The translations under genes were made by a program, and so were the position numbers. A stretch of 64,000 bases of DNA from Eunapius fragilis (lineage: Eukaryota > Porifera > Demospongiae > Spongillida > Spongillidae): the NCBI GenBank assembly GCA_963681505.1, contig OY811977.1:3005925-3069924 (forward strand), written 5' to 3'. Below, piece by piece: positions 585 to 47,200 of this stretch (its first letter is position 1; every line of letters begins with the position of its first letter). A model generated the notes under the pieces. That model worked only from the letters and a program-made list of their open reading frames with translations. It searched no databases and was not told the origin of the DNA.

Positions 585-1633
585 ACGGTTACAACGCAAG
601 ATGGCTGAGGTACGGGATAAGGCTACTGTGCTTACGTTGGCTGGTCCGGCAGCGCAAGTTAACCCCCCATTGTTAATCGTGCTATCAGTTGACGGCATTC
701 CACTGGCGATGGAAATAGACACGGGTGCGGCGGTTGCACTCATCAGCGAAACTACTTACAGGAGCCATTGGTCCGTGACATCTAGGCCGCCACTGGAGCG
801 TACTAACATCGTTCTGAAGACGTATTCGGGAGTGGTATTATTGGCGCTGGGCCAGATTACCGTCACAGTGTCGCACAAACATCAGACGCATAAGCTGCGC
901 TTACTGGTTATCCAGGGCGATGGCCCGTCGCTTCTGGGTAGGGACTGGTTTTTCAGATTGCAGGCTAACCGCGAAAGGTTGGGTATTTTCCACACTCGCT
1001 CTTCCTCCGAGGACCTGGAAGGTGTTCTGGCCAAGCATGCAGGCTTGTTTCGGGACGAGTTGGGCCTTGTTAAAGGGACTCCAGTTAAACTCCACGTGGA
1101 TCCTGCCTGCAAGCCCCGCTTTTATAAGCCACGTCCTGTGCCGTACGCCCTGAGAGAAAAGGTCGAAGCCGAATTAGAGAGACTGTTGCAGGCTGGTGTG
1201 ATAGAACCTGTGCGTTCGGCGGACTGGGCGGCGCCAATAGTTCCCGTCATGAAGCGAGATGGAAGGGTACGTATCTGCGGGGATTACAAGATGACGGTTA
1301 ACCTGGCAGCCATGGTTGAGACGTATCCCCTACCCCGGGTCGAGGAGTTGTTGTCATCCATCGGAAATGGCAAGGTGTTCACTAAGCTCGATCTTGCAAA
1401 TGCTTATACTCAATTGGAACTGGCAGAAGAGTCGAAGGCCCTAGTCACCATAAACACACACAAGGGGCTATTCCGATACAATCGTCTTCCTTTCGGAGTA
1501 GCAGCGGCCCCAGCTATTTTTCAGAGAACGATGGAAAACGTTCTGAGGGACATTCCCCATGTCTGTGTGTACATCGATGATGTACTAGTGTCGGGGGAGT
1601 CAGAATCATCACATCTGAAGACCTTAGAACCGG
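457..1633 (+). pseudogene. pol: Gypsy A pol 5' part: aspartic protease and N-terminal reverse transcriptase
   Basis: The frame shows a retropepsin-like active site in the form DTGAA (near 719-733) and a downstream LLGRDWF motif. The reverse transcriptase then begins with AAPIVPVMKRDGRVRICGDY and continues to the catalytic YIDD box at about 1570-1581. The reading frame is lost at 1634, exactly where the Ginger1 transposon starts. The rest of reverse transcriptase resumes at 6874. The sequence beyond 1634 in this frame is transposon DNA, although it stays open to 1779. Gag-Pol would act in cytoplasmic particles to copy the element RNA into DNA. Confidence 0.85.
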
Positions 1634-1674
1634 TGTCGGAGGATATAATGTCCCCCTGGAAAAAGTGTCCCCCC

Positions 1675-1791
1675 GGACAATATACCCTAGGTTATATTGT
1701 CCCCCGGACAATATACCCTAGGATATATTGTCCCCCCCCTGGTTATACTGTCCCCCCACCCCCGGACACTATAACCTAGGGTATATTGTCC
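1675..1791. repeat. Left subterminal array of 28 bp palindromes
   Basis: Three copies of a self-complementary 28-mer, of form GGACAATATACCCTAGG then TATATTGTCC, lie at 1675-1702, 1706-1733 and 1764-1791. They are separated by runs of C. The same unit fills the right end of the element, so it is probably a transposase-binding or structural site of Ginger1. A pure C run follows at about 1791-1811. Confidence 0.85.
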
Positions 1792-1937
1792 CCCCCCCCC
1801 CCCCCCCCCCCTAGTAGCACAACAAGGGGGGTGGGGGTGGGGTACCGAAATGGGATCAACAGCCTAGCAGAGTTTTAATCCCTCCCTTGCATGCACGTGA
1901 CCACCCGACAAATATCACTCTGTCACGTGGTTAGAAT

Positions 1938-4900
1938 ATGTTCGACTACGATGCTATTCGGGAGTTTTTGGTGCATGGTAGTTATCCAACTGGGTATTCC
2001 AAAGACCAAAAGCGATCATTCAGAAGAAAAGCGAAGCTTAACTTCCGAGTCAAGTCTGGTGTCCTTTACTATTCTGCCTCTTCGGCTTCGGCGGAAGAAC
2101 GGCGATGGAGGAGAGTAATAACAACAAAAGAAGAGCGTCATCGCGTCATGACAAGCTGTCATGCATCTGCTGAAGGTAAGCATCTGTTCGAGCGTGCAGT
2201 CACTAGAATAGGGGTGGGGGGTGGGTGGCTATTATAGAAATTGCATGCATGTATTTGTAGCCCAAAGTACGGTTGATAATACTATCAAACTGCTGATAAT
2301 GTTTTTTGCTTGCTATTTAAATTCTAGGAGGACATTTTGGGAGGGACAAAACTCTGGAGAAGGTTACCTCAAGATTTTTCTGGGAAGATATGTTTGATGA
2401 TATCCGTCAGTTTGTGAAATCTTGTGATACCTGCCAGCGAGCTAATGACACCAAATTTTCTAAGATTGATGCTGCTCTCCACCCTATTCCTGTGGAATCT
2501 AAAGTGTGGAACCAAGTAAATTGCATTCTTTTCGTGTGTGTGTCATGCACCCCCCAATTTATTTTTATTATTTGAGAATACTTTAATTTTATTAGTACTT
2601 AATCCAGTAGTTCAAATAATCATTTAAAGTTTCAGAATTGCAATGATGAATTATATTCATAGGTGGGTATTGACATGATTGGACCACTTCCCAAAACTTC
2701 ATCAGGCAACCGATATGTCATAACTCTTATGGATTACTTTTCAAAATGGCCAGAGGCAGAGCCTTCAAAAGACAAGACATCACGCAGCGTTGCCTCATTC
2801 CTGTACAGGATGATATGCAGGTATTACATTTATGTATGTGCAAAATGTTAGTCCTGAGTTTTTAGAAAATGTATGAGTTTGATTTTGTAGAATATGGAGG
2901 CAACATAACAATGTATTGTATTGGTGCTATAAGTACATGTAAACAATCCGATGTATTTCAGTCTAAAACATATGCTATAAATTACAAAGTGAATGCAGAA
3001 TTAATATTAATTTTAAAAACTAAAACAGTGCAATTAGAAATCAGCAAAATTGTTACTTCATTGTGCAATTTAGAAAACTACAGCATTTTCTAATTTGGAA
3101 ATTTGCATACGTATGTGGATATATACAAATACGTGCATAATTATGTGTGGCAATATTCTTACTAAACAAGGGTCATGCACTAAACTGTATTTCATGTTGT
3201 CATATAGCAAATAAAATTTAATCATGAATAGTGTGCTTACCTTCATGCTGTTTGCCAGTATGGGTAGAAATTATATTTGTATTGAGGTTCCTGTACTATT
3301 CTTTAAATTTGTTCTATCTATCTTTACATATAGACATGGAGCTCCGAAATCAATCCTTACTGATCAAGGGAGGGAGTTTGTGAATAGTACAAGTGAGCAC
3401 CTTTTTTACCTGACAAACATCAAACACAAGATGACATCAGCTTACCATCCACAATGTAATGGCCTAATTGAGCGATACAATCAGACACTACAGCGATCAT
3501 TGTTGAAACTTGTTAGCGAGAAACAGGATGATTGGGACATGTTTCTTGATGGTGTTTTATTTGCGTATCGCACATCGGTGCACAAATCAACTGGTTTTAC
3601 ACCATTTGAACTAATGTACTGCAGGTATGAAAATTTGATGGTTGGTCTATGCACTAAATCATTCATATGTTCTGTCATTTAGGAAAGCTGTTCTGCCTAT
3701 TGAAAATGACATACATTCAGAAAGTGTGAATACCAATGTTGGTGAAAGTCATGCAGAGGAAGGGGCTGAGGGGACAGAAGAAATGATTACAAGGATGGCA
3801 CAATTACAGAAGGGATTGTTCCAATCAGCCAAGCTAAACATTGGCAAGGCACAGGACCGCTACAAACGAGACTATGATATGAAACACAGCAATGGCAAAG
3901 TAAGTTGGCACATTAAAAATTGCTGTCCTCATTCACATTGTTCTTATAAAACAGCCAATTCAAGTTGGGCAAATGGTTCTGTTACGCAACTCCCAACGTG
4001 ATGGTAGAAAGGGTGGCAAGCTTCAGAAGAGATGGCTTGGTCCTTACAAGGTAGTAGATTCCATTGGAAAGGGAAGGTACATACTCTTCAATCCCATGAC
4101 CCGAGCAAAACTTAGAAGAACAGTTAATATTAATAGGCTCAAATTGTACCACTCATCAATACTTCATATATCAAAAAAGAGAAAGCGTGTGAAATGTTCT
4201 TCTGCAGTTCTTCAGGAATCAGGGAATTATGAAGATGCTAGTCCAGAAAAGGAGCAAGATGGTGCTTCAAAGAAGGGAGCTCATGAGTTATCTTTATCAA
4301 AGAAGACTAGGGTGATGGAATGCACCACTGAGGAATCTGGAGATTGTGCAGATCCAAGTCTGGACAATGGGAAAGATAGTGCTGCAATGAAGGGAGCTCA
4401 TAAGCCTCCTTTATCAAAGAAGACTAGGGTGATGGAACGCACCACTGAGGAATTGGGAGATTGGGCAGATCCAAGTCTGAGCAATGAGCACCATGGTGCT
4501 GCAAAGAAGGAAGCTCATGAGTTATCTTTATCAAAGAAGACTAGGGTGATGGAATGCACCACTGAGGAGTCTGGAGATTGTGCAGATCCAAGTCTGGACA
4601 ATGGGAAAGATAGTGCTGCAATGAAGGGAGCTCATAAGCCTCCTTTATCAAAGAAGACTAGGGTGATGGAACGCACCACTGAGGAATTGGGAGATTGGGC
4701 AGATCCAAGTCTGAACAATGAGCACCATGGTGCTGCAAAGAAGGAAGCTCATGAGTTATCTTTATCAAAGAAGACTAGGGTGATGGAATGCACCACTGAG
4801 GAATCTGGAGATTGTGCAGATCCAAGTCTGGACAATGGGAAAGATAGTGCTGCAATGAAGGGAGCTCATAAGCCTTCTTTATCAAAGAAGACTAGGGTGA

Positions 4901-6370
4901 TGGAATGCACCACTGAGGAATCGGGAGATTGGGCAGATCCAAGTCTGGACAATGGGAAAGATTGTGCTGCAAAGAAGGGAGCTCATAAGCTTTCTCTGTC
5001 AAAAAAGGTCATAAATGTGCAAAGTCAAAGCTCTAATACTGTTGGTAATAAATCAGTGCTTAAGCAAATTAAGAATTTGAAAGGCACTATAGAGGTTTCA
5101 GGTTATAGCCAGGATAATTCCACACACCTGAACACAGCTGATTTGGGGTTTTTCACTGAGGGTAATAAGCAAGATAGCTACTTAATGCATTTTAGTAATG
5201 ACAATGTATTTTCAAATACCTTGTGCCCAGAAGATGGTTTTACAACCAGTACACCAAAACAATGTGGTGGATACTTTGTTCCAATGAATGCAATGGATAC
5301 TTCTCCTATTTCCTGTGTCGAAATTTCAGGTCTGACACATCACACAGTTTTGGCTTATAAATCAGTACCTCTAGAGCCAGAAGCATGCAGTACAGAGAAG
5401 AAAACTACCAGATGCTTGAAAACCCGTGCTGCAATGAGGGATAGTCTCAAGCGAAAAAATGCTCAGCAGTCTTCAGCTGCAGGCAATAATCTCATCACCC
5501 ATCCAGGTAATGTTATGTTATTCATGTGTTATGTGATTCTGTTTATTGTCAAGCATGAGTATAATAGCATGAATGTCACAAATTGATTTGGTCCCCTATT
5601 TTGCAGAAGTAATAGATGATTCAAAGGACCATGTGGATCCAATATCTCACTGGATACCATACCTGAACTTATTAATGTATGATTATGAAGCACTGGTTGG
5701 TGGCAAATGGATTACAGATAGCATAATTAATGCTGGACAGAAGCTTCTCCAAAGTGTTTATCCATTAGTTCGTGGTCTGCAAGTTACCACACTTGGTGAA
5801 GTGTTAGCCTATCGTGTGGAACGACAGGAATTTGTACAAATCCTACATGTATCCACCAATCATTGGTTAACGTGTTCTACCATTGGATGTGAGCCTGGAG
5901 TAGTAAACATTTTTGACAGCATGAGTGGAAAGGACCTACCCACCAGAGCAAAGGAACAAATAACATCACTCGTCTGTACTCCACTAAAGCAAGTCATTTT
6001 GAAGTTTATGCGTGTTCAAAGGCAAAAAGGTTGTAATGACTGTGGTGTGTTTGCATTGGCGTTTGCCACTACATTGTGTAGTGGGGAGTGTCCAACATCT
6101 ATGACATACAATCAAAAAAGTATGAGAAAGCACTTGCTAGACTGCTTTGTGAATGGTAAGATGGAAACCTTCCCTACCACAAAAGGAAAGAAAATTACAC
6201 GACCCATTTCTACTGTAAAAGTTAATGTCATTTGCAATTGCAGGCAACCTGAAGATGACTGGATGGTTCAGTGTGATGGATGTGAAGAATGGTTCCATAA
6301 GGAGTGCGAGAACATACCAAGCACAGTGTGGTCGAAAAAATCCAAGTGGCTTTGTAGTTTGTGTGCATAA
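1938..6370 (+). CDS. Ginger1 transposase (integrase, GPY motif, 39-residue repeats, Ulp1 protease, PHD finger), seven exons
   Basis: Predicted exons are 1938-2175, 2328-2515, 2663-2820, 3334-3624, 3683-3899, 3955-5506 and 5607-6370. Every intron has GT..AG borders and every phase joins, giving 1135 residues without a stop. In order: an H2C2 zinc segment (about 70-125); a DDE integrase core with D146 (GIDMIGP), D205 (LTDQG) and E241 (LIER), spaced DD35E; a GPY motif at 393-395; about six copies of a 39-residue lysine-rich repeat (about 473-714); a C48/Ulp1-like cysteine protease with H967, D985 and C1027 (NDCGVF); and a C-terminal PHD finger (about 1091-1134, CNC..CDGC..HKEC..CSLC). The integrase should cut and join the transposon ends. 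The roles of the protease and PHD finger (SUMO removal, chromatin reading) are inference. The start Met at 1938 is the first in frame with the zinc segment. Confidence 0.88.
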
Positions 6371-6681
6371 CATGTTATGCACACAAACTACATAGCAACT
6401 AGTCTTTGTCTTCATCTCATATCTTACCTCATATTTTTCATTTATCCTTGCTGCATTATTTATATATTATCCTTACAGTATTATATCATTTTAATAGTAT
6501 ATATTCTTGCAGTATTATATCCTTGCAGTATTATATATTTCATATATCACTATTTTTTTATGATTAGAATTTACGAAAGAAGTGTGGCTATACACTTCAA
6601 TGCAACAGGCATTGCGTATACCATTTCTATATGGGACACGAGGTTGATATGCATGTTTGATGGGTGTTTTTATAATGTGGG
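6371..6681. other. Ginger1 3' region, AT-rich, no gene
   Basis: This is an AT-rich stretch between the transposase stop codon and the right palindrome array. It contains several direct copies of TTGCAGTATTATAT-like sequence near 6465-6535. Open frames here are short and resemble nothing I know. It is probably the 3' untranslated region of the transposase. Confidence 0.5.
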
Positions 6682-6830
6682 GGACAATATACCCTAGGTT
6701 ATAGAGTCCGGGTGGGGGGGACAGTTTCACCAGGGGGGGGACAATATATGCTAGGGTATATTGTCCGTGGGGGACAATATATCCTAGGGTATATTGTCCG
6801 GGGGACAATATACCCTAGGCTATATTGTCC
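6682..6830. repeat. Right subterminal array of 28 bp palindromes
   Basis: Four copies of the Ginger1 palindrome lie at 6682-6709, 6739-6766, 6772-6799 and 6803-6830. Half-sites follow at about 6836 and 6851. Spacers are runs of G, opposite in strand to the C runs of the left end. The two arrays together therefore form a long imperfect terminal inverted repeat. Confidence 0.85.
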
Positions 6831-6869
6831 GGGGGGACAATATAAGGGGGGACAATATATACTACGACA

Positions 6870-8773
6870 CCGGTACTTTCCCGCCTACAGCAAGCTGGTT
6901 TTCGATTGAAGTTGGCCAAATGTGCTTTCATGCTTCCTTCACTCGAATATCTGGGACACGTGATTTCGGGAGAGGGTGTGCACCCAACAGAAGAGAAAAA
7001 GCAGGCCATAGTAAAGGCCCCCGCACCAAGTAACGTCACACAGCTGCGGTCCTTCCTGGGGATGCTCACGTACTATGGCAAGTTCTTGCCTAATCTAGCC
7101 ACAACGCTGTCTCCTCTGTATGAGCTGCTTGAGAAGAACAAGCGTTGGTTGTGGGGAAAACAGCAAGAATCGGCATTCAGGCATGCAGGCAAAGGAACTT
7201 CTGACATCCGCAGAAATTTTGGTGCATTTTGATCCTAGCAAGGAACTACTCCTGGCATGCGATGCTTCACCCTACGGTGTAGCGGCGGTGTTATCACACA
7301 AGTTTGCTGATGGCTCAGATCGTCCCATTGCCTATGCATAACGTACGCTCTCGCCTGCCGAGAAGAAGTATGCGCAGATCGAGAAGGAGGGGCTCGCGGT
7401 AATCTTCGGGGTTACCAGATTCCATCAGTTCATCTATGGAAGGGAGTTCACCATCGTTTCGGACCACAAGCCACTGCAGTTCCTGTTGAGCGAAAGCAGA
7501 ACGATTTCTCCTATGGCTTCAGCACGAATTCAACGCTGGGCCCTAACGCTTGGATCCTATCGCTACCATATGCAGATTACAGGCCAATGTGGACGCGCTC
7601 AGCCGACTGCCGCTAGAGGAACCGGCAATGGTGGAGGAACAGGCACAAGAGGAGTCCGTACTCATGATGGAGGTACTGGAGAGAGGCCCGGTTCCCGTGA
7701 CGAGTGACACCATCCGCAAGCAGACAAGCAGGGATCCAGTGTTAGCCAGAGTGAAGAACATGGTGGCTCATGGAAACTGGAGTGCTGCCGAACGTTCGGA
7801 GGATACACGCCCGTACGCGAGCAGGAAGTGGGAATTAAGTGTGCAAGGGGATTGCATCCTGTGGGGGGAGCCGAGTCGTGGTACCACAAGCGTGTCGGGA
7901 AGCGGTACTGGAGATGTTACACGAAGCACACCCAGGCATTGTACGAATGAAGGCACTAGCCAGGAGCATAGTTTGGTGGCCAGGGATTGATGCTGACGTG
8001 GAAAAGAAAGTCAAGTCTTGTCAGCAGTGCCAGGCTAATTCGAAGGCACCCCCGGTGGCCCCCCTTCACCCCTGGGAGTTTCCAACAAGGCCGTGGTCTC
8101 GGTTACACATCGATTTTGCTGGACCATTCCTGGGAAAATTGTTCGTGGTTTTGGTGGACGCCTACTCAAAGTGGCTGGAAGTGGCAGTGGTCCCTTCCTG
8201 TTCGGCCTCCGCCACACACAATTCGTTTCCTGCGAAATATTTTCGCCATCCACGGTACTCCGGACCTAATTGTCTCTGACAATGGCACGGCGTTCTCCAG
8301 CGAGGAGTTCCAGTCCTTCCTGAAACGGAACAACATTCGCCATACCACTAGTGCACCGTATCACCCTTCAAGCAACGGGATGGCCAGCTGGGGATGGCAG
8401 AACGTTACGTTCAAACTTTTAAGGAGGCACTCAGGAAATCTCAAGGAGACATCGAGACACGCCTGGCTCGGTTTTTGTTCATGTACCGCCTTACCCCCCA
8501 GTCTACTACGGGGCAGTGCCCAGCGGAGCTACTTTTGGTCGGAGGCCCCGTTCTCCCCTAGATGCCCTGCACCCAGACCTGTCGGAGAAAGTGGTCTGCG
8601 TGCAGCAACGGCAAAAGGAAATTCACGATCGCCACTCCCAAGTCCGTGAAGTACAGCCAGGGGACTTAGTGTACGCCATGAACTACAGCGGTTCGCCTAA
8701 GTGGTTGCCTGGTGTCGTGACCAAGCGCACGGGTCCAGTATCGGTCGTAATAGACCTAGGTGAAGGTAGAGGC
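6870..8773 (+). pseudogene. pol: Gypsy A pol middle part: RT thumb, RNase H and integrase, with frameshifts
   Basis: After the Ginger1 insertion the reverse transcriptase resumes (LKLAKCAFM, then YLGHVISGEG and LRSFLGMLTYYGKFLPNL). RNase H follows (ACDASPYGVAAVLSHKF), with a TAA stop at 7339-7341. The integrase comes next: an H2C2-like zinc segment (CQQCQANS near 8020), a first Asp in HIDFAGPF, and a second Asp in VSDNGTAF. The GLIER-type glutamate segment reads SSNGMASWG, so the catalytic Glu is not seen in place. The reading frame changes at about 7200, 7600, 7850 and 8240, and again before 8516. No functional protein can come from this copy. Confidence 0.85.
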
Positions 8774-13557: not shown

Positions 13558-16500
13558 CTAGTCAAAAATGTTTGTTCCAAATCTGTCCGGCCGACTCCTT
13601 AATCTTTTCGACTGTCGGAGAAGTGGCAATGGCTCCACTGGCGGCTGTTCCTGCTGATCATCCCGAGGCTCCACTTCATGTTGCTCCTCCTGGCGCTCTG
13701 GCTCGAGATTATCCTCTTGAGGAGCAATCACCAAGTTATCATCTTCAGTTTCCTCAGCATCGGATACATCTGATTCCTCAGCCTCAGAAAAAACAGCTGC
13801 ATCACGTGGTGCGGTTGTCCCTTGTTCGTATGTACCTCCCCGTGCACACGGCTTCAACCTGTCAAAATGAACAACAACTTTCTTGCGAGTGGAGTCCCTG
13901 TGTTGGATCAAGTATAACACATTACTGAACACTTTCACAACTTTATATGGACCCTGCCAATAAGAGTGTAATTTAGCCGACTTCCCCCTGGGCACAGCAG
14001 GACAATACAACCAAACCCATTCACCAATCCCATACGGCCTTCCCGTCCGTCTGCGGTCATACACCATCTTCTGACGGCGCTGCCGCCAACCTAACCGTTC
14101 TCGCACCCTCTCATACGCAGTATCCAGTCGAGCTCTCAAATCTTTGCTATATTGGTGTACCGGCTGAGGTGGAACATTTGGAGGCAACCCAAACATGACA
14201 TCCACCGGCAGCCTGGCCTCACGTCCGAAGAGGAGGAAATATGGCGTACACCCAGTGGACTCCTGCACACTTGTACGATAGGCTAGCATCACTGCTGGAA
14301 TACAGAGGTCCCAATTCTGTTCATCCTCCCTCGATGCAATGCTAAGGAGATCAAGCAAAGTTCGATTAAAGCGTTCGACCAGCCCATCAGATTGCGGGTG
14401 ATAAGGCGTAGTCCTTGTCTTCTGAACTCCCAACAGCAAACACACTTCCTTAAACAGGGCGGACTCAAAGTTCCTCCCCTGATCGGTGTGCAGAACATCA
14501 GGGGCTCCAAACCTGCTGACAAAATGACTAACAAACACGTTAGCAATAGTTTTTGCTTCCATGTTAGGTATTGGATAAGACTCCACCCATTTTGTAAAAT
14601 AATCCCCTAACACTAGAATGTACTTGTTCCCTCTATCCGTGAGCGGCAGAGGACCCAGGATGTCCATGGCCACACGCTGGAATGGGCCACCAGCCAACAC
14701 CTGCTGCATTGGGGCACGATTGCGCCGTGGAGGTGACTTCCGTGCCGCACACAATTCACAAGCTCGACACCAGTCTTCGATGTCATGGCGCTGACCCGGC
14801 CAGTAAAAACGGGAACGGACTTTCTCCAAAGTCTTGAACATTCCAAGATGGCCACCACTGGGAGAGCTATGAAGTTGCTGCAGGACAGAGCCTATCCAAC
14901 TCCGAGGTACTACCAACTGAAGATGTTTATTGCAACCCTTTCCCGGAACATCTTCCCACTGTCTAAACAGAACCCCATCCCGAACTACCAGGTGTTTATA
15001 CTGTGCCCACAATGTCTGCAGAGTGTAACTGCCCTCACTTGGCAAAGCAGCTGGTGGAGACGAGTTTTCTATCCAGGAAATTACCCTTCGAAGATCAGCA
15101 TCAGACCCCTGCATCTCCTTAGAGTTCTCCAGTGGCAAAACGGAGAGGCCTGCCTCAGAATGCACATTCGATCCAGACCACAAATTACCACCGTTACCAT
15201 TAACGGCCCCAAACGCATTGTGGAACAAACACGGCGTGGCAATGCCATTGTGCATACCACATTGCTTACACTGGATCCTTGAAAGGGCGTCTGCATTGCC
15301 ATGACGAAGACCTGGACGATGAATAACATCAAAATCAAATTCAGCGAGAATCTCTAGCCACCTCGCCACCTGGCCCTGGGGGTCTTTAAAACTACGTAAC
15401 CAACGAAGCGCGCTGTGGTCGGTGCGAACAATAAACCTTCGTCCCCATAGATAAGCCCGAAACTGACGAACTGACCATACCAATGCCAACAACTCACGTC
15501 TCGTTGCACAATATTGGCATTCCGCCTTTGTAAGCACCCTGCTAGCATATGCGATCACCCTTCCATCGTCCAAGTGTGATAGTACTGCTCCAACACCCTC
15601 CTGACTGGCGTCAGCATCAACCACAAATGTTCTGTCGAACTGTGGAAAGGATAAAATAGGGGGCGAAGCTAACTTACCCTTTAAAGCCACAAATGCCTTA
15701 TCACACAGTTCAGTCCAGTGCCAGGGTTTGGATTTTTCTGTTAGTGCATGAAGAGGAGCAGCGGTGTCTGCAAAATTGCGAATGAATTTCCTATAATAGG
15801 AAGCAAACCCCAAGAACTGTCGCAGGCTTTCATGATCAGTGGGCGTAGGCCAGTTTTCGACGCACTTGATCTTGTCAGCATCCGCAGCTATACCCTTCTC
15901 TGAAACCACGTAGCCCAGATACCGCACACTCTTGCAAAGCAGATGGCATTTGCTAGGCTTGATCTTCAGCCCCGCCTCCTTAAGCCTCTGTAGCACCTCT
16001 GTAAGCCGCTGCAAGTGCTCTTCCACCGTTCGACTAAAAATGATGATATCATCAAGGTATACCAAGCATGTTACCCAACTGAGTCCTGCCAGGACCATAC
16101 TCATTAACCGCTGAAACGTGCTTGGAGCGTTCGTTAGTCCGAACGGCATTACTCGGAACTGATGTAGACCAAACGGAGTGATGAACGCAGTTTTCTCCTT
16201 GTCCGCAGGATCCATTTCTACCTGCCAGTAGCCACTTGCCAAATCTAAGGTTGAAAACCACTTGGAGCCGGATAAAGTGTCCAGAGCATCATCAATCCTG
16301 GGAAGAGGGTGCACGTCTTTTTTTGTTACGCTATTCAGGCGACGAAAATCTACACAAAACCTGTATGAACCGTCCTTTTTCCTAACCAGAACAATAGGCG
16401 AGGCCCATGCTCCTCCGGACGGCTCTATTATCCCCTGTTGGAGCATTCCCTGGATCATTTTCTGTACCACGTCACGTTGATGAAACGGAAGCCTCCGCGC

Positions 16501-18261
16501 CGGCTGATGAACAGGGGGGGTGTCACCTGAGTTGATGGTATGACGTAAGACATTGGTACGCCCTAAATCACCGTCACCTACAGAAATTACATCTGAGAAA
16601 TGATGTAAAATTGTTTTCAACTTAGCACACTCCTCCCTTGACAACCCCGATGTGTCACCCATTAATTCCCCAACTGCTTTACCAATTGCCTCTGTTGATC
16701 GGGCTGGAAGCCGTGTGCCCAATGCAGGCTCAACCATATTCGCTCCCTCTCTTCCATCCCATGGGGATACCTGACCAACCTTCTCCTTGCAATGCAGTGT
16801 TACAGGAACTGCAGAGGGGTTCACCAGCTGAACTACTGCTTTGCCATCATGGACAGGAGATACAGAACAGGCAAACAGAAGTCCGCGTTGAGTAGACATT
16901 TCCGCCTTTGGCTGGAACAGACCCACATAGTCCCCGTCCGTTTTCGCACCTTCCAACTGAACCTGCAATCGCATCTCGTGATAGGGTGGCACGACAGCTG
17001 TCTCCTGTACAAACACATGACATGTAGAAATACACGACCCGTACAAGGTGTCTAGGGGTATTGTTTCGCCTAACATGATCATTGTTCTTCTCCCCAGGTC
17101 AACAACACACCCGTATTGTTCTAGAAAGTCTGTTCCCAATAAACACTCCTGCGTCATCTCACGCACAACAAGGACAGTATGAGTTCTCACATGCTTTCCC
17201 ACCATAAGATCAAGGTCAATCTGTCCACATAGACTTAACGAGTCTCCATTAACTGCCATCACAGGACATTGGGGTGTCAAGAGTTTCCTGTCTTGAGAAA
17301 TGTCATTCCACACCTTTTCATGCACAAGGGTAACGGATGATCCTGTATCCACTAGCATACGTGTGGGACGACCCCCAACCATACCCTGCAGTATCAACGT
17401 GCATGCCACAGCCGATGTGTACTTCACTGACCTGTCCTTCCCAATCTCCTTCGGAGATACATTCCGTTCCTTCCGCTGAGGACAATTGCGCCGTATATGC
17501 CCTTTTTGCTTGCAGTTCCAACAGACAGGGACCCTTTTCGGAGCGCTCCTTTTCTCACCGACTTCCCGACTTGACAACTTACTAATCTCCTGTGACAGCT
17601 GTTGGACTTGTAACGCCAACTCTTCCACCGTATTAGCTCGCAATGCACCTTGTACCAGGTCTCGTTCACCTGACACGGCAAGACTCGCACCTGACCCCTG
17701 TTTCTCTCCGCGTAGGCTTTGTTGAGCCAGCTCCACTGATTCCCACTGGCTAGCCAAAGCAAGTGCAGCCTCCAACGACTCTGGTTGCTTCCTCAAAAGC
17801 CTCATCTGCACAGAAGGAGAGATAACACCGTGAATAAATTGCTCACGCGCCATTTCAAGTCGTCTTTCCGCCGACCACGAAGGGTAAGCCTTGTCCGCCA
17901 GCATCCGCAACCGCCCTGAAAATTCTAACAGGGTCTCGGGTCTCTCCTGGTGGGCTGAGTGCAGTTTGCGCTGCCATTCCAGTTCGACTCCTTTTGGCGC
18001 ATACTGCTCCTGCAGACATTTCTTCACCTCTTCATACTCCACCCCGTCACCGCTAACAAAACCCGACTGACTCACTACCCGAAATGCGTCGTCTTCCAAC
18101 AGCGCTACCAACTCTTCTCCTCGCTTGTTATCCGGGACCTTCGCTTCCCTGAAGTACAGTTCTAACCTTTTGACCCAGAGATTGAAGTCAGCGCCCTTAG
18201 CAAACCGAGCGGGCGGTCTAGCGCTAAACCGAACAGCCTTCCGCTCTTCCTGCTCGGCCAT
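13558..18261 (-). CDS. Gypsy B Gag-Pol polyprotein
   Basis: This is one open frame of about 1567 codons. I prefer the Met at 18261 (MAEQEERKAV), because the only earlier in-frame Met (18303) lies inside the LTR. Domains in order: capsid-like Gag (1-230); a CCHC knuckle CWNCKQKGHIRRNC (about 246); a retropepsin with LVDTGSS (about 304); reverse transcriptase with YLDD (about 736); RNase H with VVDADAS (about 885); an integrase H2C2 zinc segment (about 1130-1170); an integrase core with Asp in MDILGP, Asp in HTDQG and Glu in LVERF; and an acidic C-terminal tail. Having gag and pol in one frame without a shift is known for some Ty3/Gypsy lineages. No stop or frameshift is seen, so the copy may be competent. 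It would replicate through RNA in cytoplasmic particles. Confidence 0.95.
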   Translation of the reverse strand: MAEQEERKAVRFSARPPARFAKGADFNLWVKRLELYFREAKVPDNKRGEELVALLEDDAFRVVSQSGFVSGDGVEYEEVKKCLQEQYAPKGVELEWQRKLHSAHQERPETLLEFSGRLRMLADKAYPSWSAERRLEMAREQFIHGVISPSVQMRLLRKQPESLEAALALASQWESVELAQQSLRGEKQGSGASLAVSGERDLVQGALRANTVEELALQVQQLSQEISKLSSREVGEKRSAPKRVPVCWNCKQKGHIRRNCPQRKERNVSPKEIGKDRSVKYTSAVACTLILQGMVGGRPTRMLVDTGSSVTLVHEKVWNDISQDRKLLTPQCPVMAVNGDSLSLCGQIDLDLMVGKHVRTHTVLVVREMTQECLLGTDFLEQYGCVVDLGRRTMIMLGETIPLDTLYGSCISTCHVFVQETAVVPPYHEMRLQVQLEGAKTDGDYVGLFQPKAEMSTQRGLLFACSVSPVHDGKAVVQLVNPSAVPVTLHCKEKVGQVSPWDGREGANMVEPALGTRLPARSTEAIGKAVGELMGDTSGLSREECAKLKTILHHFSDVISVGDGDLGRTNVLRHTINSGDTPPVHQPARRLPFHQRDVVQKMIQGMLQQGIIEPSGGAWASPIVLVRKKDGSYRFCVDFRRLNSVTKKDVHPLPRIDDALDTLSGSKWFSTLDLASGYWQVEMDPADKEKTAFITPFGLHQFRVMPFGLTNAPSTFQRLMSMVLAGLSWVTCLVYLDDIIIFSRTVEEHLQRLTEVLQRLKEAGLKIKPSKCHLLCKSVRYLGYVVSEKGIAADADKIKCVENWPTPTDHESLRQFLGFASYYRKFIRNFADTAAPLHALTEKSKPWHWTELCDKAFVALKGKLASPPILSFPQFDRTFVVDADASQEGVGAVLSHLDDGRVIAYASRVLTKAECQYCATRRELLALVWSVRQFRAYLWGRRFIVRTDHSALRWLRSFKDPQGQVARWLEILAEFDFDVIHRPGLRHGNADALSRIQCKQCGMHNGIATPCLFHNAFGAVNGNGGNLWSGSNVHSEAGLSVLPLENSKEMQGSDADLRRVISWIENSSPPAALPSEGSYTLQTLWAQYKHLVVRDGVLFRQWEDVPGKGCNKHLQLVVPRSWIGSVLQQLHSSPSGGHLGMFKTLEKVRSRFYWPGQRHDIEDWCRACELCAARKSPPRRNRAPMQQVLAGGPFQRVAMDILGPLPLTDRGNKYILVLGDYFTKWVESYPIPNMEAKTIANVFVSHFVSRFGAPDVLHTDQGRNFESALFKEVCLLLGVQKTRTTPYHPQSDGLVERFNRTLLDLLSIASREDEQNWDLCIPAVMLAYRTSVQESTGCTPYFLLFGREARLPVDVMFGLPPNVPPQPVHQYSKDLRARLDTAYERVRERLGWRQRRQKMVYDRRRTGRPYGIGEWVWLYCPAVPRGKSAKLHSYWQGPYKVVKVFSNVLYLIQHRDSTRKKVVVHFDRLKPCARGGTYEQGTTAPRDAAVFSEAEESDVSDAEETEDDNLVIAPQEDNLEPERQEEQHEVEPRDDQQEQPPVEPLPLLRQSKRLRSRPDRFGTNIFD

Positions 18262-18276
18262 GTAGCATTCGGTCCG

Positions 18277-18294
18277 ATCCCACTTCTGACACCA
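18277..18294 (-). promoter_or_regulatory. Gypsy B primer-binding site, tRNA-Leu type
   Basis: On the minus strand the sequence is TGGTGTCAGAAGTGGGAT. It is complementary to a tRNA 3' end of the form ATCCCACTTCTGACA plus CCA, which matches animal leucine tRNAs as I know them. It starts one base inside the LTR, the standard place for minus-strand DNA priming. Confidence 0.8.
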
Positions 18295-18295
18295 G

Positions 18296-18408
18296 TGTAG
18301 CAATCCAAGTGTTTAATCAAATAAGATCGTACAGCACGCCATTAAATACCCTCAGGTGTAAACACTGCGCATGTCCATAATAAGAGCAGCTATAGCGCAT
18401 GCGCTACA
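18296..18408 (-). repeat. Gypsy B 5' LTR
   Basis: 113 bp, identical to 13418-13530. On the minus strand the primer-binding site follows after one base, and the Gag-Pol ATG lies 34 bases past the LTR. Confidence 0.93.
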
Positions 18409-32319: not shown

Positions 32320-35300
32320 CAAGGGCGTAGACAAGGGGGGGGGGGGCAGGGGGGGCTTTAGCCCCCACAAATATTTGCTGCAAAGTTATTAGAAGTTAGT
32401 AATAGTCAGTTAAGCTTTTTAATAGACCTTCTGCACCTTGTATTACGTCATTGTTTACCACGTCATCTAGCGAACACTGAGATGGTCCATATCAGTAGTC
32501 GCTAGGTAATGTTTACTTATCGTCGGAAGTAAATATCACGTAGCGATTACTGATATGGACCATATCAGTGTTCGCTACGTAATATCGATGACGTGACGTA
32601 AACAAGATGTAGGATACGAGTTGCAGAAGGACTATATACAGACGCATGCAGCAATGCGACACTCGCGCATTACATTTGTGCCACGCCATAACCATATAAC
32701 ATAATCAATTACATTACAAATAGCATTAAAGGGCACGACAGGCACATTTTACAAAAAAAAAAAAATGCAGCGTTCGATATCTCCACTCTAGGTATATTCA
32801 TGTACATGTAGCATTATTACTTAGATAAACCAAACATATCAATTCTGCTTTGGTTTCTTCCGATAAACTCATCTGCTATGTCAGTGATTGACAGTTTATC
32901 TGTACGATCTTTGTGCTCATGTAGAATCATGCACCAGTTAACTCTTTGCTGGCTCATTGTGGTGCGAAGCCATGTTTTTAACCACCTTAGAGCACTGAAA
33001 CTTCTTTCAGAAGTCGCGTTAGTCGCAGGTATGAGTAGAATAAGTTTGAGAATCTTAATCACTTCTGAAAAGTATTCCTTTTGTTCATGTGTCAATGTTT
33101 TAATGTACATAATAATTGACTGCAAGTTAAGCCTCTCAATGCCCGAACTTGATGTCAAAATGCGTAACTGCGTCGTAAGTCTGTCAGCACTATCAAAATC
33201 TGAACCATAAAATTCTATTATCTCTTGGATAAGTGGCTGCTTACTACCATCATCCAAAATTAATACAGACTCCAACTTCTGTAGCATCTGATACCCTCGC
33301 TGATTGAACCTATCGGTTATCGTTGTTGAAGCTGTATCTAATGCCTGGAAATAAATATGGCGGTAGTGATCCTCTGGAGAAATGTTTTGCTGTTCAGATA
33401 CACTGCTTCCTACTTCAAATCATCGAGGGACTTTTCTATGACGAGGAACTTCAGGAGGGCACACAAAATCATTTATGGATCGCCGCTTTTCAACATACTG
33501 CCAGAATAAACTGAATTGCTCATCTGTTCTTAATGACATTAACGCTGATAGTGTTAGTTGTACAAGTTTCTGCCCTTCGCATGCAGACATAAGTTTTGCT
33601 TGAAGTGAGCGTGATAGATTATCAGCCATACACAGAATCTTTCTACCTAATTCAAGAGCAAAGAAGAAGCCAAATTTCTCCATCTGAGAAGCAACTCCAA
33701 GTATTCTTGCTTTCATTTCAGTGTCAGTCGTTGCATTTTTAGCTGACTCCCATGTAAGTTGAAGCACTCTGTAGTTTTCAGATATTGAAGCCAATGCTTC
33801 TGCCTTCACAGTCCATCTAGTTGGACACAAAACATGAATGCCAGGACTATCATTCGAGATGTCATCCTTAATGGAGTTAAAAATTCCTTCTCGCTTTGGC
33901 GATTTCTTAATTAGTTTGGTAATCTCATAAACTGTATCCAGACAGTCTCCTATGATTTTTATAGCTTTCAAGGTATCTTGAGTTGCAAGATTCAAGCTAT
34001 GACCATAGCAATGTGAAAATAGGGCCCTTTTTTCACAACCAGTAATTCTTGTTGCAACACCTGATCGCACACCTGCCATATTACCAGCACCGTCGTAGCA
34101 TTGACCACGACAGTTGCTGATGTGTAAATTAAAGCGCAACAATGTATCCTGCAATACAGTCATGATGTAGGCTGCATCGGTACGTTCCAAATTGTAGAAA
34201 CCTAATGTATCCTCATGTACTTCAAGATTATCATCAACGTAACGTAAGCAAAATACCATTTGTTCAGTATTGGATGCATCTGTACATTCGTCAACCATAA
34301 TTGAGTACCACTTACCAGTCAACTCACCACATATGCTTCTTAGAATAGTCAAAGACATTATCTCCAAAATTTCATTCTGTATGTCTGGGCTTGTGAATTT
34401 GTCCTGTTTTTTATTCAAGAATTTGTGCAAGCCTTCATTATCTTCTGCTCGTAATCTGAGAAGCTGTACAAAATTGGAGTCTAATTCCCCGCTTTCGGTT
34501 GGATTTGATGTGCATGTCTTTTGATGTCCTCGCAATGCTAGTCCTTGTCTACCTAAAAAGCGGATAGTACCTATAATTACCGACAGCATTTTCATTTTTT
34601 TGTTTTCTACTTTTTCTAACGCATAACTGTCACACAACATCTCTCCAACATCTCTTGTTTTGGATACAAGCATTTGTACTGCTTCACGATGAGCAGCGGT
34701 GCACTCGTGTATTTCAAAACGTTCCAATCCTTTTTTCCAATTAAAAAAGCCTGCAGTTGAGAACGCATTGTCTCTATAAGCATTCATTGGTAAACGACGC
34801 TTTTCAGCTATCATGCAGTAGTAGCAAAACACTTTATCCGTGCTTTCTTCGTAATGAAGCCATTTGTGTTTTTCATACCATAAGGAGCAAAACGACCGTG
34901 TCTGCTGGCCAAACGCTCTTTTGGGAAATGGCTTCAAGATTGGCTGATGCGGGTTCTTTGGCTCCAGAGAAACAGGAACGGTCATTGAAATTGCATTTGA
35001 AGATTCCGCTTGACTAATTGATTGAGCATTATCAAGCGATGGAACAGACCTATCTTCTACGCTTCCAGCAGCAGGATTGTCGATTTGAAGATGACGACTA
35101 CCTGTATCCTAGAGGTTATCGTCATGAGCTGATTGAGTTGGAAGTGCACAGCTCTTTGATTTGTGTGTAGCAAGCCAGGAGAGCAACGACATCTTCTTCA
35201 CGAACGAAACCCACGTAAACACGCGCACGCAGAAGAAATAACCAGTCAAATTAATCAAAATGTTAATTTATTAATAAAAGTTAATAACTTAGCCCCCACA

Positions 35301-38197: not shown

Positions 38198-39736
38198 ATG
38201 ATGCTACGCCTGGTGAGAAGCACGCTGTTCATTAGGAACAAACTTGCGATCTTCTTTGTGAAACAACGGTTGTTGGCGTGGAGATGCAATGCGAACCTAA
38301 AACTATATATGAAGTGCAACTTGTTCGACATAACGAAAAAGCTCCGCTTCTCTCCAAAAATGATTAAAAGAAAAGATGTCTATTTGGAACAAGCTTTTGC
38401 AACGGCGGGCAAGGGTTTTGTTTTTGGAGGTTTTGTTTTAGGCTTGGTACCCGCATTTGCTTTGGCTGCAAAAAGCTGGTACGATATCAGTACAAAGGTG
38501 AAAGAAAGGTTTGAAGATCCTGAACGTCCTTATCATAGGAGAACTAAACACCATGATCATTATATTGCAAGAGATGAGGTAAACAATGAGGTGAAAAAAG
38601 CATTTGTGGGGCAAACCGATACGTTGGGATTGGTTGGCATTATCTTTGGACCTACAGGGACTGGAAAGTCAGCTGTAGTAAGGAATGTGTGCCGAGATGC
38701 GGCCGAGGCGGGTCAAGGCGTTGTTTATATTGACATTGGATCTCACTGCCAATTAGCATATCAGCTGGCAGAAGCATGTGGGTTACCTGTGGAACAACGT
38801 AATTGGTACGATGGATTGGCATCAAGATTTTTTCCCGATTGGAAGATGGCCTTAAAACTTCCAGAGAATGATGAAGATGCACTGGCATATGTCATTACAG
38901 CTATCGCCAGTGGATGTAGGAAGTACAAGGATAAACATGGCCACGTTCCAACCCTTTTTATTGACGGTGCTGAAATTCTTGCCGATCAAAACAATCAATT
39001 GTTTGAAAGCTTAGTTATGTGGGCAATAAAGTGTGCCAATGATAACGTCCTTCAGATCGTTTTGGTTAGCAGCGACTCGCACATCTTGCACGCTTTGGAT
39101 GTACATTCCATCAAGTGTCGGTTGGATAATCTCATTGAGATCGAAGATGTTCCAGAGGAAGCGACTGTGAAGCTAATGACAGAGAAGTTTAAGATGCCAG
39201 AGTATTTAGCTAAAAAAATATACAACGTTACAGGCGGGCGTCTTACCGATGTACACAAAGCTGTGTCAATGTGGATGAATAAGAAAGAAGCCGCAACCAA
39301 TAATATACATGAAAAGGATAAGGCACTTGAAGAGTCATGGATGAATACTTTAGTGGATGAAATTGAGACCCTGTTCTCTCTGGAAATGGAGCAAGCCTTT
39401 TTAAAAGCATTTTGCAATTCTACGCAGAGAGAATTGGAACTTAAAAAGGCTATCTTAACCGATAGCTTAGCTCTCAACAATGGAGCGGTTGATGCACAAA
39501 AAGACTCATCTGGAATTGCCAAGCCTCTAAAACCTCCAACGGTGGAGGATATACAAAGGAATATGGTAAAAAAATTCGAAAAGGATAAAATTTCTGCATC
39601 ACAGGTAATGAGTGCCATTCTTCAGCTCGTAGACAATTACTTATTAAGGATCACAAAACAACGAACATTGCGCTGTTACAATAGGACAGCTCAAAAGGTA
39701 TTGAAACAGATGTGCTCGCAGCTTGAAGAACATTGA
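38198..39736 (+). CDS. Intact single-exon P-loop ATPase with a membrane segment, function unknown
   Basis: An uninterrupted frame of 512 codons without introns. Residues 1-55 are basic and partly hydrophobic. Residues about 73-92 (GFVFGGFVLGLVPAFALAAK) form a likely membrane helix. Walker A is GPTGTGKS at 151-158 and Walker B is TLFIDGAE at 252-259. LVSSD near 294 may be sensor 1. The fold looks like an AAA+/STAND ATPase of the archaeal-ATPase type, with a helical C-terminal region. The first Met at 38198 has an adjoining second Met; the Met at residue 55 is an alternative start that keeps the membrane helix. The intronless form and Helitron-like upstream DNA suggest it belongs to a mobile element, though a host gene is possible. 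I do not know its substrate. Confidence 0.75.
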   Translation: MMLRLVRSTLFIRNKLAIFFVKQRLLAWRCNANLKLYMKCNLFDITKKLRFSPKMIKRKDVYLEQAFATAGKGFVFGGFVLGLVPAFALAAKSWYDISTKVKERFEDPERPYHRRTKHHDHYIARDEVNNEVKKAFVGQTDTLGLVGIIFGPTGTGKSAVVRNVCRDAAEAGQGVVYIDIGSHCQLAYQLAEACGLPVEQRNWYDGLASRFFPDWKMALKLPENDEDALAYVITAIASGCRKYKDKHGHVPTLFIDGAEILADQNNQLFESLVMWAIKCANDNVLQIVLVSSDSHILHALDVHSIKCRLDNLIEIEDVPEEATVKLMTEKFKMPEYLAKKIYNVTGGRLTDVHKAVSMWMNKKEAATNNIHEKDKALEESWMNTLVDEIETLFSLEMEQAFLKAFCNSTQRELELKKAILTDSLALNNGAVDAQKDSSGIAKPLKPPTVEDIQRNMVKKFEKDKISASQVMSAILQLVDNYLLRITKQRTLRCYNRTAQKVLKQMCSQLEEH

Positions 39737-44204: not shown

Positions 44205-47200
44205 CTAAACATACATTAATAAAATCCTGCTGCTCTTATAGAAATTTTCAGCAGTAGGGTCTAATCCACCAGGAGTTGGTGCCCTTGGATTAGAAACCAA
44301 TACATTATCTATGGGTGGATGAACATTGAAGTTGGACTTTTCAGTCAGGTGGTCACCAAGCAATAGATCACTGGCTTCATAAGGTCCACACTCCCTGGAA
44401 CGTAAGGACCTGACACCATATGACCATAGCTTGCTATATATGGAACTATTAGAATTAACCTCTTGCCATACCTCCTGCATACAGTTTTTTTCTGCCTTGG
44501 TCACGCAACCTGTTACATAATGAGCGAGAGTCAATGAAGATTCAGCCGTGAACTGAATATCCATATTGGCTTTCCACAGCAGAAGCAATAATGGATTGTT
44601 GTCATTGACTCGACACTCTAATGTGGAACGAGGAAGCTGATCGATTTTCTTCCTTGACTTAAGACAATCCTCTACAGGGTTTAGGATGGCACATTCAGTA
44701 CTCTCGCGGGGAAAGCCAAATCAACACTTTGTAATGTATGCACTTTTAAGCCTTTGCCTGCATTTACGGTAGTTAGTACAATTGTGCATTTGGTATTTAG
44801 TAACCAATGCATGGAGTTCAGGATTGAGACCTGCATCTGGGATCCTGCAGGTCATACGCTCTTGAACCCATGCAAGAACCTGTTTAGGATCACTGATATC
44901 AATCACAGGTGCTCCTTCAATCCATAGAAGGACATGATAATGTATTTGGTACTCTTTCTTCCAAAAGAAGTGCTCGACCACCCCAAGCACAGATTCTTTT
45001 AATATGGCTGTGTTGAATAGGTCATGAAAATTTGACGAAAACTTTCTTGACACTGAAATAGGATCTTCAGTGCAGAGCCTTGATATTGGATAGCTATCGG
45101 AATGGTCGTCATTAACCTTCCTAAGATATCTAGCAATGTGCACGTTATCATACTCTTCGCAGCTGAAAGTCAAAAATAGAGTTGGTGAGCCCCATTCTCT
45201 AAGCATGCATTTCAGCTCACTGCTTCTATGGAACTACCGCGCACAGACTGGAATATTTACGAAAGATTAGCGTCAATATTTTCATCACTTTTAGATACTT
45301 TGGATAGAAATTCTGTTACAGGCATTTTACCCTTTGCGGTACTTTTAAGGAAATTATATATTCCAGCGGAAATCTTGATGCCAATACAAAAAGAATACAT
45401 ACTGGGCATCTTTTCTAAAGTGCCCATCTTTGTTGAGTACCCTAGACTTGGCATATTCTGATGCCGATATATGTTGTTCGCGTGGGTGGAATTTCCCGTA
45501 CCGCCCAGAGGGGAACAATGTTGGGAAACACATCACATCAAGATGGCTCTGTCTGCTTTCTATAGGTTTTTCTTTAACGTTAAGCATCTTATAGTGGTCA
45601 ATGTCTTGTACAGGTGATGTGTGCTGATCCAATGAACGTATTGTGTGTGATTGGAAAGCAGCTAAGTCAACATCAGAGGCCTTTTCTAACATTGTGCTGG
45701 AAGGTTTCTCAACAACCTCTACTACTTTTTTTGATACATCGTCCAGTGATGCATCATCTACATTTTTGTACAACCAATTCATTTCTTTGAGTTTTTGTAT
45801 GGCTTGCTTTATTGCATTTACATCCACTAACATTTGCCACACAATTTTGTTTTTAGTTGGAACCCCATTCACAATAATAAACAATTGTGGGTCAGGCAAT
45901 GCAACTACTCCATCAGGTTGAACCTCCGACAGGGTTATCAAGTGTGTGGTTAAGGGGCAGTGGAAGGAAAAAAATGCAACCCTTGCAAGCCTGTAGAGCA
46001 TTATAAGCTGGCACTTTACCAGAATATGTACCCAACCACACAATAGTCTGAAATGCTTTTGAATTAGCTGTTTGCTGAGAACATCGAGTGACTTGAGCTC
46101 AACAGGGACTGATTCTGTTATTAGTCCATTTAGAACACATTGTGAAGGGATAGCATTTTTATTAAGAAATGGCCTGCAATGCTGACAAATATACAGCTTT
46201 TCAGTAGAATTATTTCCCACAATGTGAGCTCTGTGCCTAACCCACGCATCAGTGTTGTATTTGCCAAGGCTAAAGTTAACTAGGGACACTTGCTTGCGTT
46301 GGCAGAGGTGTTCACAGCTACAACATGCAAACTCAGCATCATCAGTGAATTTATTTTGCAGCTCAGCAATGATATCAGCATGTGAAATTAACAGGTGCCT
46401 TTCAATGCAGCCAAGACCAGACAATGCATGGTCTTCACTAAACACAGTGGTAGTGTGCTCACTGCCATCGTCATTAAATAAATTACACAGATCATCTATG
46501 CCATGTAATTTAAGAAGATCATCTATCCTACTGCCATGGAGAGCTTCATCTATACTAACAATGGCCCTGTGGCTTTTGCGAGCTGAGTAAAGAAGCCAAC
46601 TAAATATTTGCAATATAGGATAGTGTGTTGCTGCTGCCCTTATCCCCCTCAATGGACTAGAGCACAATGGAAGCTCACAACAGATGGGATGCCCACTGAG
46701 TTCACTAAAGTGTGGATTTTGATTACCTAACTCAGTGGTGTCATCATGATGAACATAATTGCACTCTGAATCTAGGTTGTCAAGCTCCAAGCTCTACTCT
46801 GATATCCTCAATGCATGCTTGGAATACTGATTTTATTCGCAGCACTAAATCAACTTCATCAGTACTAAGAAGTCTGCATTCCTTTGTACATTTCCATTTT
46901 AGAGGGCATAAATGTACAGCATCTCTGTCCCCTATTTCCTCTGTTACAACACATCTACCCTAAAGGTCTACTGGAATAGGCCCAGATAGCTTTGCATGAG
47001 TATGAGAGGTGTCATAGAAATAAGGTTCTGAGCTACCGCTGTGATTCCCTTCACCATGTAATAAGTCACTGCATGTACGCTTCAGTGTATTTATATCACG
47101 AACAGTTTTTAGTAATGAGCCTGCATGCTGCCTCCGAAGCTGTAATGTCTTAGTGAGTAAAGCATTCCCACTAATCTTACTTACTGCCACACGACCAGCT

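Follow-up and report, generated by a model that had tools for sequence, protein, structure and literature searches.

A complete and probably very recently moved Ginger1 DNA transposon in the sponge Eunapius fragilis

The window, as we call the whole stretch of DNA analysed here, is 64,000 nucleotides of chromosome 7 of the freshwater sponge Eunapius fragilis (GenBank assembly GCA_963681505.1, contig OY811977.1, positions 3,005,925 to 3,069,924 of the forward strand). Positions are those of the window unless a contig (C) is named, and loci elsewhere in the genome carry L numbers. At 1634-6869 on the plus strand lies a complete DNA transposon of exactly 5236 bp with the termini TGTCGGAGGATATA...TATATACTACGACA (Table 1). 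TGTCG stands at its left end and again at its right end on the other strand, which fits the TGTNR ends of Ginger1. The two terminal inverted repeats (161 and 191 bp, gapped) are inside the Ginger1 length range of about 40-270 bp, and their main local alignment has 140 identities, 9 mismatches and 19 gap positions. Judged by its ends, duplications and predicted domains, the element is a new member of Ginger1 and not a new kind.

Table 1. Features of the Ginger1 element and its insertion site, in window positions
Feature	Position	Strand	Content or basis
Left target-site duplication, CCGG	1630-1633		Ends and empty site
Left terminal inverted repeat	1634-1794	+	About 161 bp; 28-bp palindromes at 1675-1702, 1706-1733, 1764-1791
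Exon 1	1938-2175	+	Start codon, YPYY-like region, first zinc ligand
Exon 2	2328-2515	+	H2C2 zinc finger
Exon 3	2663-2820	+	Integrase core, D146
Exon 4	3334-3624	+	Integrase core, D205 and E241
Exon 5	3683-3899	+	Gene model
Exon 6	3955-5506	+	GPY/F region and repetitive linker
Tandem repeat within exon 6	4256-5007	+	6.4 copies of a 117-bp (39-aa) unit
Exon 7	5607-6370	+	Ulp1-type cysteine protease region, PHD finger, stop codon
Right terminal inverted repeat	6679-6869	-	191 bp; four 28-bp palindromes, two imperfect: 6682-6709, 6739-6766, 6772-6799, 6803-6830
Right target-site duplication, CCGG	6870-6873		Ends and empty site

Joined across the six predicted GT-AG introns, the seven exons amount to 3408 nt with the stop codon and a protein of 1135 amino acids (aa). 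Three Pfam domains pass their curated cut-offs: H2C2 (E=1.1e-20, residues 64-120), rve (E=1.2e-11, residues 147-234) and PHD (E=1.5e-7, residues 1091-1134), the last with all eight C4HC3 zinc ligands present. The DDE residues are D146, D205 and E241, and 35 residues separate the second D from the E. GPY is found at residue 393, and the Tf2-1 SH3-type model covers 369-430 at a score under its cut-off. The Ulp1-type residues are H967, D985, Q1021 and C1027; these and the PHD residues are invariant in all five exon 7 sequences that were aligned, the element and one locus from each of four other families. A possible YPYY region (YP at 16, YY at 44-45) was placed by its position upstream of the zinc finger. 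The 39-aa repeat array between integrase and protease differs in length among copies of the element's family, and the L037 family, judged by eye, likewise has tandem repeats in the segment from the GPY region to the protease. The initial annotation of this DNA, made from the letters alone, had given both termini, the CCGG duplication, seven exons and 1135 codons exactly as we find them.

The element sits in the reverse transcriptase region of a Gypsy copy, which it cuts in two: RVT_1 lies before it and the integrase core after it. On the 3' side the Gypsy coding sequence, as read from the list of open reading frames, is fragmented over several frames. When the genome was searched with the left flank, 23 matches came up; 12 loci were analysed, the window itself (L018) and 11 Gypsy relatives. 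Two of these relatives run uninterrupted across the insertion point: L020 with 98.5% identity over 604 bp and no gaps, and L019 with 97.4% identity over 604 bp and 6 gap positions. Both have CTGG at the target, as against CCGG in the window. L021 also spans the point, at 73% identity only, and the other eight align only to the left of it, so they are uninformative on the empty site. The host Gypsy copy is 1.5-2.7% different from its nearest relatives, which suggests that it is older than the insertion of the element. The element evidently entered this older Gypsy copy at CCGG with a 4-bp duplication. The initial annotation had claimed a clean insertion into a decaying Gypsy, and the empty site in L019 and L020 and the broken frames downstream bear this out.

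The genome searched is 218.9 Mb in 24 contigs. The exact left end is found at eight places, which are eight copies of the element's family, three intact and five broken or truncated. In coding sequence the copies on C7 (the window), C12 and C9 are identical, and over about 5.2 kb they show zero substitutions; from the window copy C12 differs by 1 gap position and C9 by 3, none of them exonic. The C4 and C1 copies have both ends and a frame that is broken under the same gene model. The copies at C7:3.587 Mb and C2:3.10 Mb are two-ended and frame-broken, have a large internal deletion in common and are 99.8% alike over 4459 bp. The C6 copy is truncated, with CCGT at its single end and no right end found within the stretch examined. 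Each of the seven two-ended copies is bounded by a perfect 4-bp duplication, CCGG in six cases and ACGG in one. Similarity between copies (hits above 300 bp) ends at the element boundaries, and the flanks are unrelated.

Intact and identical copies at unrelated sites point strongly to very recent movement, and the element may still be moving. Zero substitutions in about 5235 bp give a 95% upper limit of about 0.06% on pairwise divergence. If we assume 1e-9 to 1e-8 changes per site per year, which is not a sponge-specific rate, the age of the intact copies would lie below some 30,000 to 300,000 years. The initial annotation had proposed a search for copies of at least 95% identity and for empty sites, and had said that strong divergence of all other copies would count against recent activity. 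The search gives two other full copies with identical coding sequence and an empty site in two Gypsy relatives, and the divergence is the opposite of strong, with no substitutions and only 1 and 3 non-coding gap positions. Its phrase "possibly active" holds as recent past movement only. Its statement that complete open-frame copies are rare agrees with the five of eight family copies that are broken or truncated; against it are the three intact copies here and the near-identical sets in at least two other families, where frames were not checked copy by copy.

The two deletion copies tell us something more. One has a CCGG duplication and the other ACGG, and their flanks differ. A common deletion at different sites with different duplications means that these copies moved after breaking, with transposase made elsewhere. 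It seems clear from this pattern that the broken form reached two sites after it broke and was mobilised in trans. At L012 (C7:3585548-3593250) the deletion copy is flanked by end-like sequences of another Ginger-like family, at C7:3586571 and C7:3592035; this is apparently one Ginger inside another.

Diverged relatives bear on the gene model. Seven were examined exon by exon (L030, L031, L032, L034, L035, L036 and L037); the counts refer to loci matching the exon concerned, and the splice position was sometimes extrapolated one or two codons beyond the end of the match. Four of the six predicted introns, 1-4, find support in these relatives, where GT and AG stand at matching positions. For intron 1 the donor GT is found in 4/6 (absent in L036 and L037) and the acceptor AG in 2/6 (L032 and L034), with L035 aligned there without an AG and L031 incomplete. 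Intron 2 has its donor in 4/6 and its acceptor in 3/7, where L030 and L031 are incomplete at that end. The figures are 5/7 and 6/7 for intron 3 and 5/7 and 5/7 for intron 4, and the misses come from L036 and L037, which have neither donor. The ratio of nonsynonymous to synonymous change (dN/dS) is 0.22 against L030, 0.24 against L031 and 0.21 against both L032 and L034, at a synonymous divergence of 0.97-1.10; these values are rough, as some aligned pieces overlap, and L035-L037 are outside the measurement. The integrase part of the coding path is under constraint between families.

Several observations weigh against parts of this picture and should be put together. The exact donor of intron 5 is found in 1/7 relatives and its exact acceptor in 1/6, both in L035 only. 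The end of exon 5 is unaligned or shifted in L030, L031, L032 and L034; in L032 the alignment covers exon 5 but has no exact GT there. For intron 6 the donor is found in 0/6 and the acceptor in 0/3, and L036 and L037 show neither of these two introns. Higher dN/dS values were obtained with L016 (0.35) and L033 (0.63, from short pieces with the repeat region counted several times). The Pfam Ulp1/C48 model (961-1053) scores 15.2 bits, under its cut-off of 20.7. A YopJ-type acetyltransferase model (972-1038) scores slightly higher, at 16.7 bits, and is still under its own cut-off of 24.4. When exon 7 was compared by phmmer with solved structures, 48 sequences were found up to E=0.05, and the best stretch was the PHD in all 48. 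It is by its motif residues, conserved in relatives, that we call this region Ulp1-type, and not by a profile score above the cut-off. Of the key residues named in the initial annotation, those of DD35E, GPY and PHD are present as it said, and the Ulp1-type triad is present by motif with its profile under the cut-off. Recent gene conversion might in principle also homogenise older insertions.

We believe this is very probably a complete autonomous Ginger1 DNA transposon of Eunapius fragilis that transposed very recently. The identical copies could instead be products of segmental or assembly duplication. Near-zero divergence is possible either way, and the assembly was built from 825 contigs. 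However, hits above 300 bp between copies do not extend past the element ends, and every copy carries a duplication of its own in a different context, so we regard this as very unlikely. The segmental origin was rejected because the flanks are unrelated beyond the ends. A different suggestion is that the element is recent, with movement in the past tens to hundreds of thousands of years, and now silent, being repressed or in need of factors that have been lost. This is compatible with recent transposition of a complete element and differs only on present activity. The low number of intact copies, three of eight, speaks for silence, but there are no substitutions among those three, and near-identical sets of copies exist in at least two more Ginger1-like families. 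We consider present silence quite possible, though short of probable.

The other two alternatives concern what kind of thing the element is, and it is difficult to find much room for them. If it were a Gypsy or retroviral fragment with an integrase, the similarity of its integrase part to the Gypsy integrase of the same window (33% identity, E=2e-56) would be expected. That Gypsy, at 13558-18312, has H2C2 and an integrase core as the sponge element does, but there they are part of a gag-pol frame that also encodes reverse transcriptase and RNase H. The element's terminal repeats are inverted and not direct, it has introns, CCGG duplications and a C-terminal protease-PHD part, and Pfam finds no reverse transcriptase in the predicted protein; a retroelement fragment is hardly credible. 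The multi-exon structure and purifying selection would suit a host gene domesticated in the manner of GIN1, GIN2 or Imagin. These are integrase-like multi-exon host genes derived from Ginger1, whereas the sponge element is multi-copy; Imagin is without a catalytic triad and terminal repeats, and the sponge element has both. Since the element has complete ends and an intact DDE triad, and stands in several copies at unrelated sites with fresh duplications, domestication has next to nothing to recommend it. Ginger2/Tdd, with an AT-rich target and no GPY/F, was ruled out by the GC-rich CCGG target and the presence of GPY.

Ginger1 targets are CCGG and CCGT/ACGG, and the hosts listed for it are hydra, sea hare, lancelet and aphid (Bao et al. 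2010). No description of Ginger1 in a sponge was found by title or abstract in the literature searched, with Repbase and subscription journals outside that search. The present element places Ginger1 in a sponge. Its closest known likeness is Ginger1-9_HM of Hydra, the sole Ginger1 listed with Ulp1 and PHD in Table 1 of Bao et al. (2010). The two have in common H2C2, DDE, GPY/F, a C-terminal PHD and (in the sponge element by motif) Ulp1, terminal inverted repeats, CCGG-type duplications and TGTNR ends. They differ in that Ginger1-9_HM is 3,758 bp with 2 introns and the sponge element is 5,236 bp with 6 predicted introns and a linker of 39-aa repeats. Ginger1-5_HM, also of Hydra, is multi-intron like the sponge element and has Ulp1, to which the Ulp1-type motif here would correspond (Bao et al. 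2010); it is 7,091 bp and has 4 introns, the maximum in that table (reached by two families), against 6 predicted here. This is a comparison by number, as the texts consulted give no intron positions that allow one by place. The palindrome arrays and the 39-aa repeat array of variable length go beyond the features we found described.

The element is not alone in this genome. Its exon 7 protein has at least 151 genome matches at E<=0.001, a lower bound from scoring 150 of 1201 first-look candidates; with so many matches we rejected the suggestion that the window element alone carries the Ulp1-PHD part. Four loci of other families were read, and L035, L036 and L037 are Ginger1-like multi-exon elements by protein. 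Both ends and the duplications were read in L035, whose exon 7 protein is 56-58% identical to that of the window element. In L038 (C9:6105000-6111000) the Ulp1-PHD part is joined to a different type of integrase, with 26% identity over 142-264; similar matches to exon 7 occur at no fewer than five places on C9, of which L038 is the one that was read. Of the L035 family there are at least seven more long copies, 96-98% identical, and of the L037 family at least four that are near full-length, 98-100% identical. These near-identical sets suggest recent movement beyond one family. L035 itself (C2:14467500-14474000) has a stretch of roughly 530 bp that is absent from sister copies and recurs elsewhere in the genome at up to 94-100% identity; it is apparently a recent insertion of a small repeat.

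The ends of the element carry 28-bp palindromes, three on the left and four on the right, of the form GGACAATATA-N-CCTAGG-N-TATATTGTCC or close variants. With a slightly looser pattern and at most 2 mismatches there are 137 genomic sites, whereas the reversed pattern gives 0. The same kind of ends is present in relatives with 73-84% identity in the matched coding pieces. The right end was readable in three of the four relatives read at the left end; each of these three is flanked by CCGG left and right, and its ends read TGTCGGAGG...ACGACA. Units within 8 substitutions of the window family's unit number five in L030, six in L032, one in L031, eight in L035, one in L037 and one in L016; L034, L036 and L038 have no unit within that distance. 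The L035 family keeps the 28-bp frame with other inner letters, and 5/8 of its units are near-palindromic by a general test. Near the ends of L036 and L037 there are repeats of another kind, palindromic in part. The word stem "palindrom" occurs 0 times in the Ginger paper of 2010.

The open pattern GGACA-N6-CCTAGG-N6-TGTCC, then NNGG, has 101 + 118 genomic occurrences and its control 0. From 100 of these 219 places (C1 to part of C5) we hand-picked 49 distinct units, or 48 when mirror images count once. Of their six inner positions 3.25 pair, as compared with 2.45 (sd 0.15) under shuffling of the arms; 0/20,000 shuffles were as high, although the units are related by descent and such counts are not calibrated probabilities. 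From outer to inner the pairing is 0.38, 0.56, 0.27, 0.60, 0.75 and 0.69. When units with the window family's inner letters are dropped, the 39 left give 3.00 against 2.30, with 2/20,000 shuffles as high. The inner letters differ between families while the symmetry is partly kept, so the palindromes are candidate transposase sites. We tentatively propose that the arrays are a specificity code for the transposase: several Ginger1 families of this sponge have the frame GGACA-N6-CCTAGG-N6-TGTCC and part of its symmetry in common but differ in the N6 letters, and different transposases would move them. The palindromes would be dimer-binding sites that diversify with the enzyme and decide which broken copies are cross-mobilised. 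This is a possibility we would not yet call probable.

The way the element might work can be put together from its parts. The spliced 1135-aa transposase would bind the palindromic arrays of both ends as a dimer or multimer, through the GPY/F region and the zinc finger. It would pair the ends and expose the conserved ...ACA 3' ends, which the DDE site would join with a 4-bp stagger to CCGG-like targets. The PHD finger may read histone tails, and the Ulp1-type protease may strip SUMO- or ubiquitin-like tags from host factors; a role for the Ginger1 protease was put forward as a proposal by Bao et al. (2010). The same defining paper called the excision of a Ginger transposon by a Gypsy-integrase-like enzyme unknown (Bao et al. 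2010). Three intact copies, deletion copies mobilised in trans and well-defined ends make this sponge a natural source of enzyme and substrate for that question.

Some minor observations remain. An inverted repeat at 6338-6407 has two 35-nt arms without a loop, 86% complementary, and is centred just past the transposase stop codon. The element interior gave no megablast match to plasmids, and an Rfam scan of the window gave nothing at gathering scores. The second Gypsy (13558-18312, minus strand) is one uninterrupted frame of 1584 aa with protease, reverse transcriptase, RNase H, H2C2 and integrase by Pfam. At 32817-35108 on the minus strand a hAT-like transposase lies in two adjoining frames, with DUF4371 and a hAT dimerisation domain. 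An open frame of 512 aa at 38198-39736 on the plus strand matches ATPase_2/AAA and is possibly a host gene. Finally, a frame of 479 aa with DUF6570 lies at 45354-46793 on the minus strand and resembles a Helitron-type fragment.

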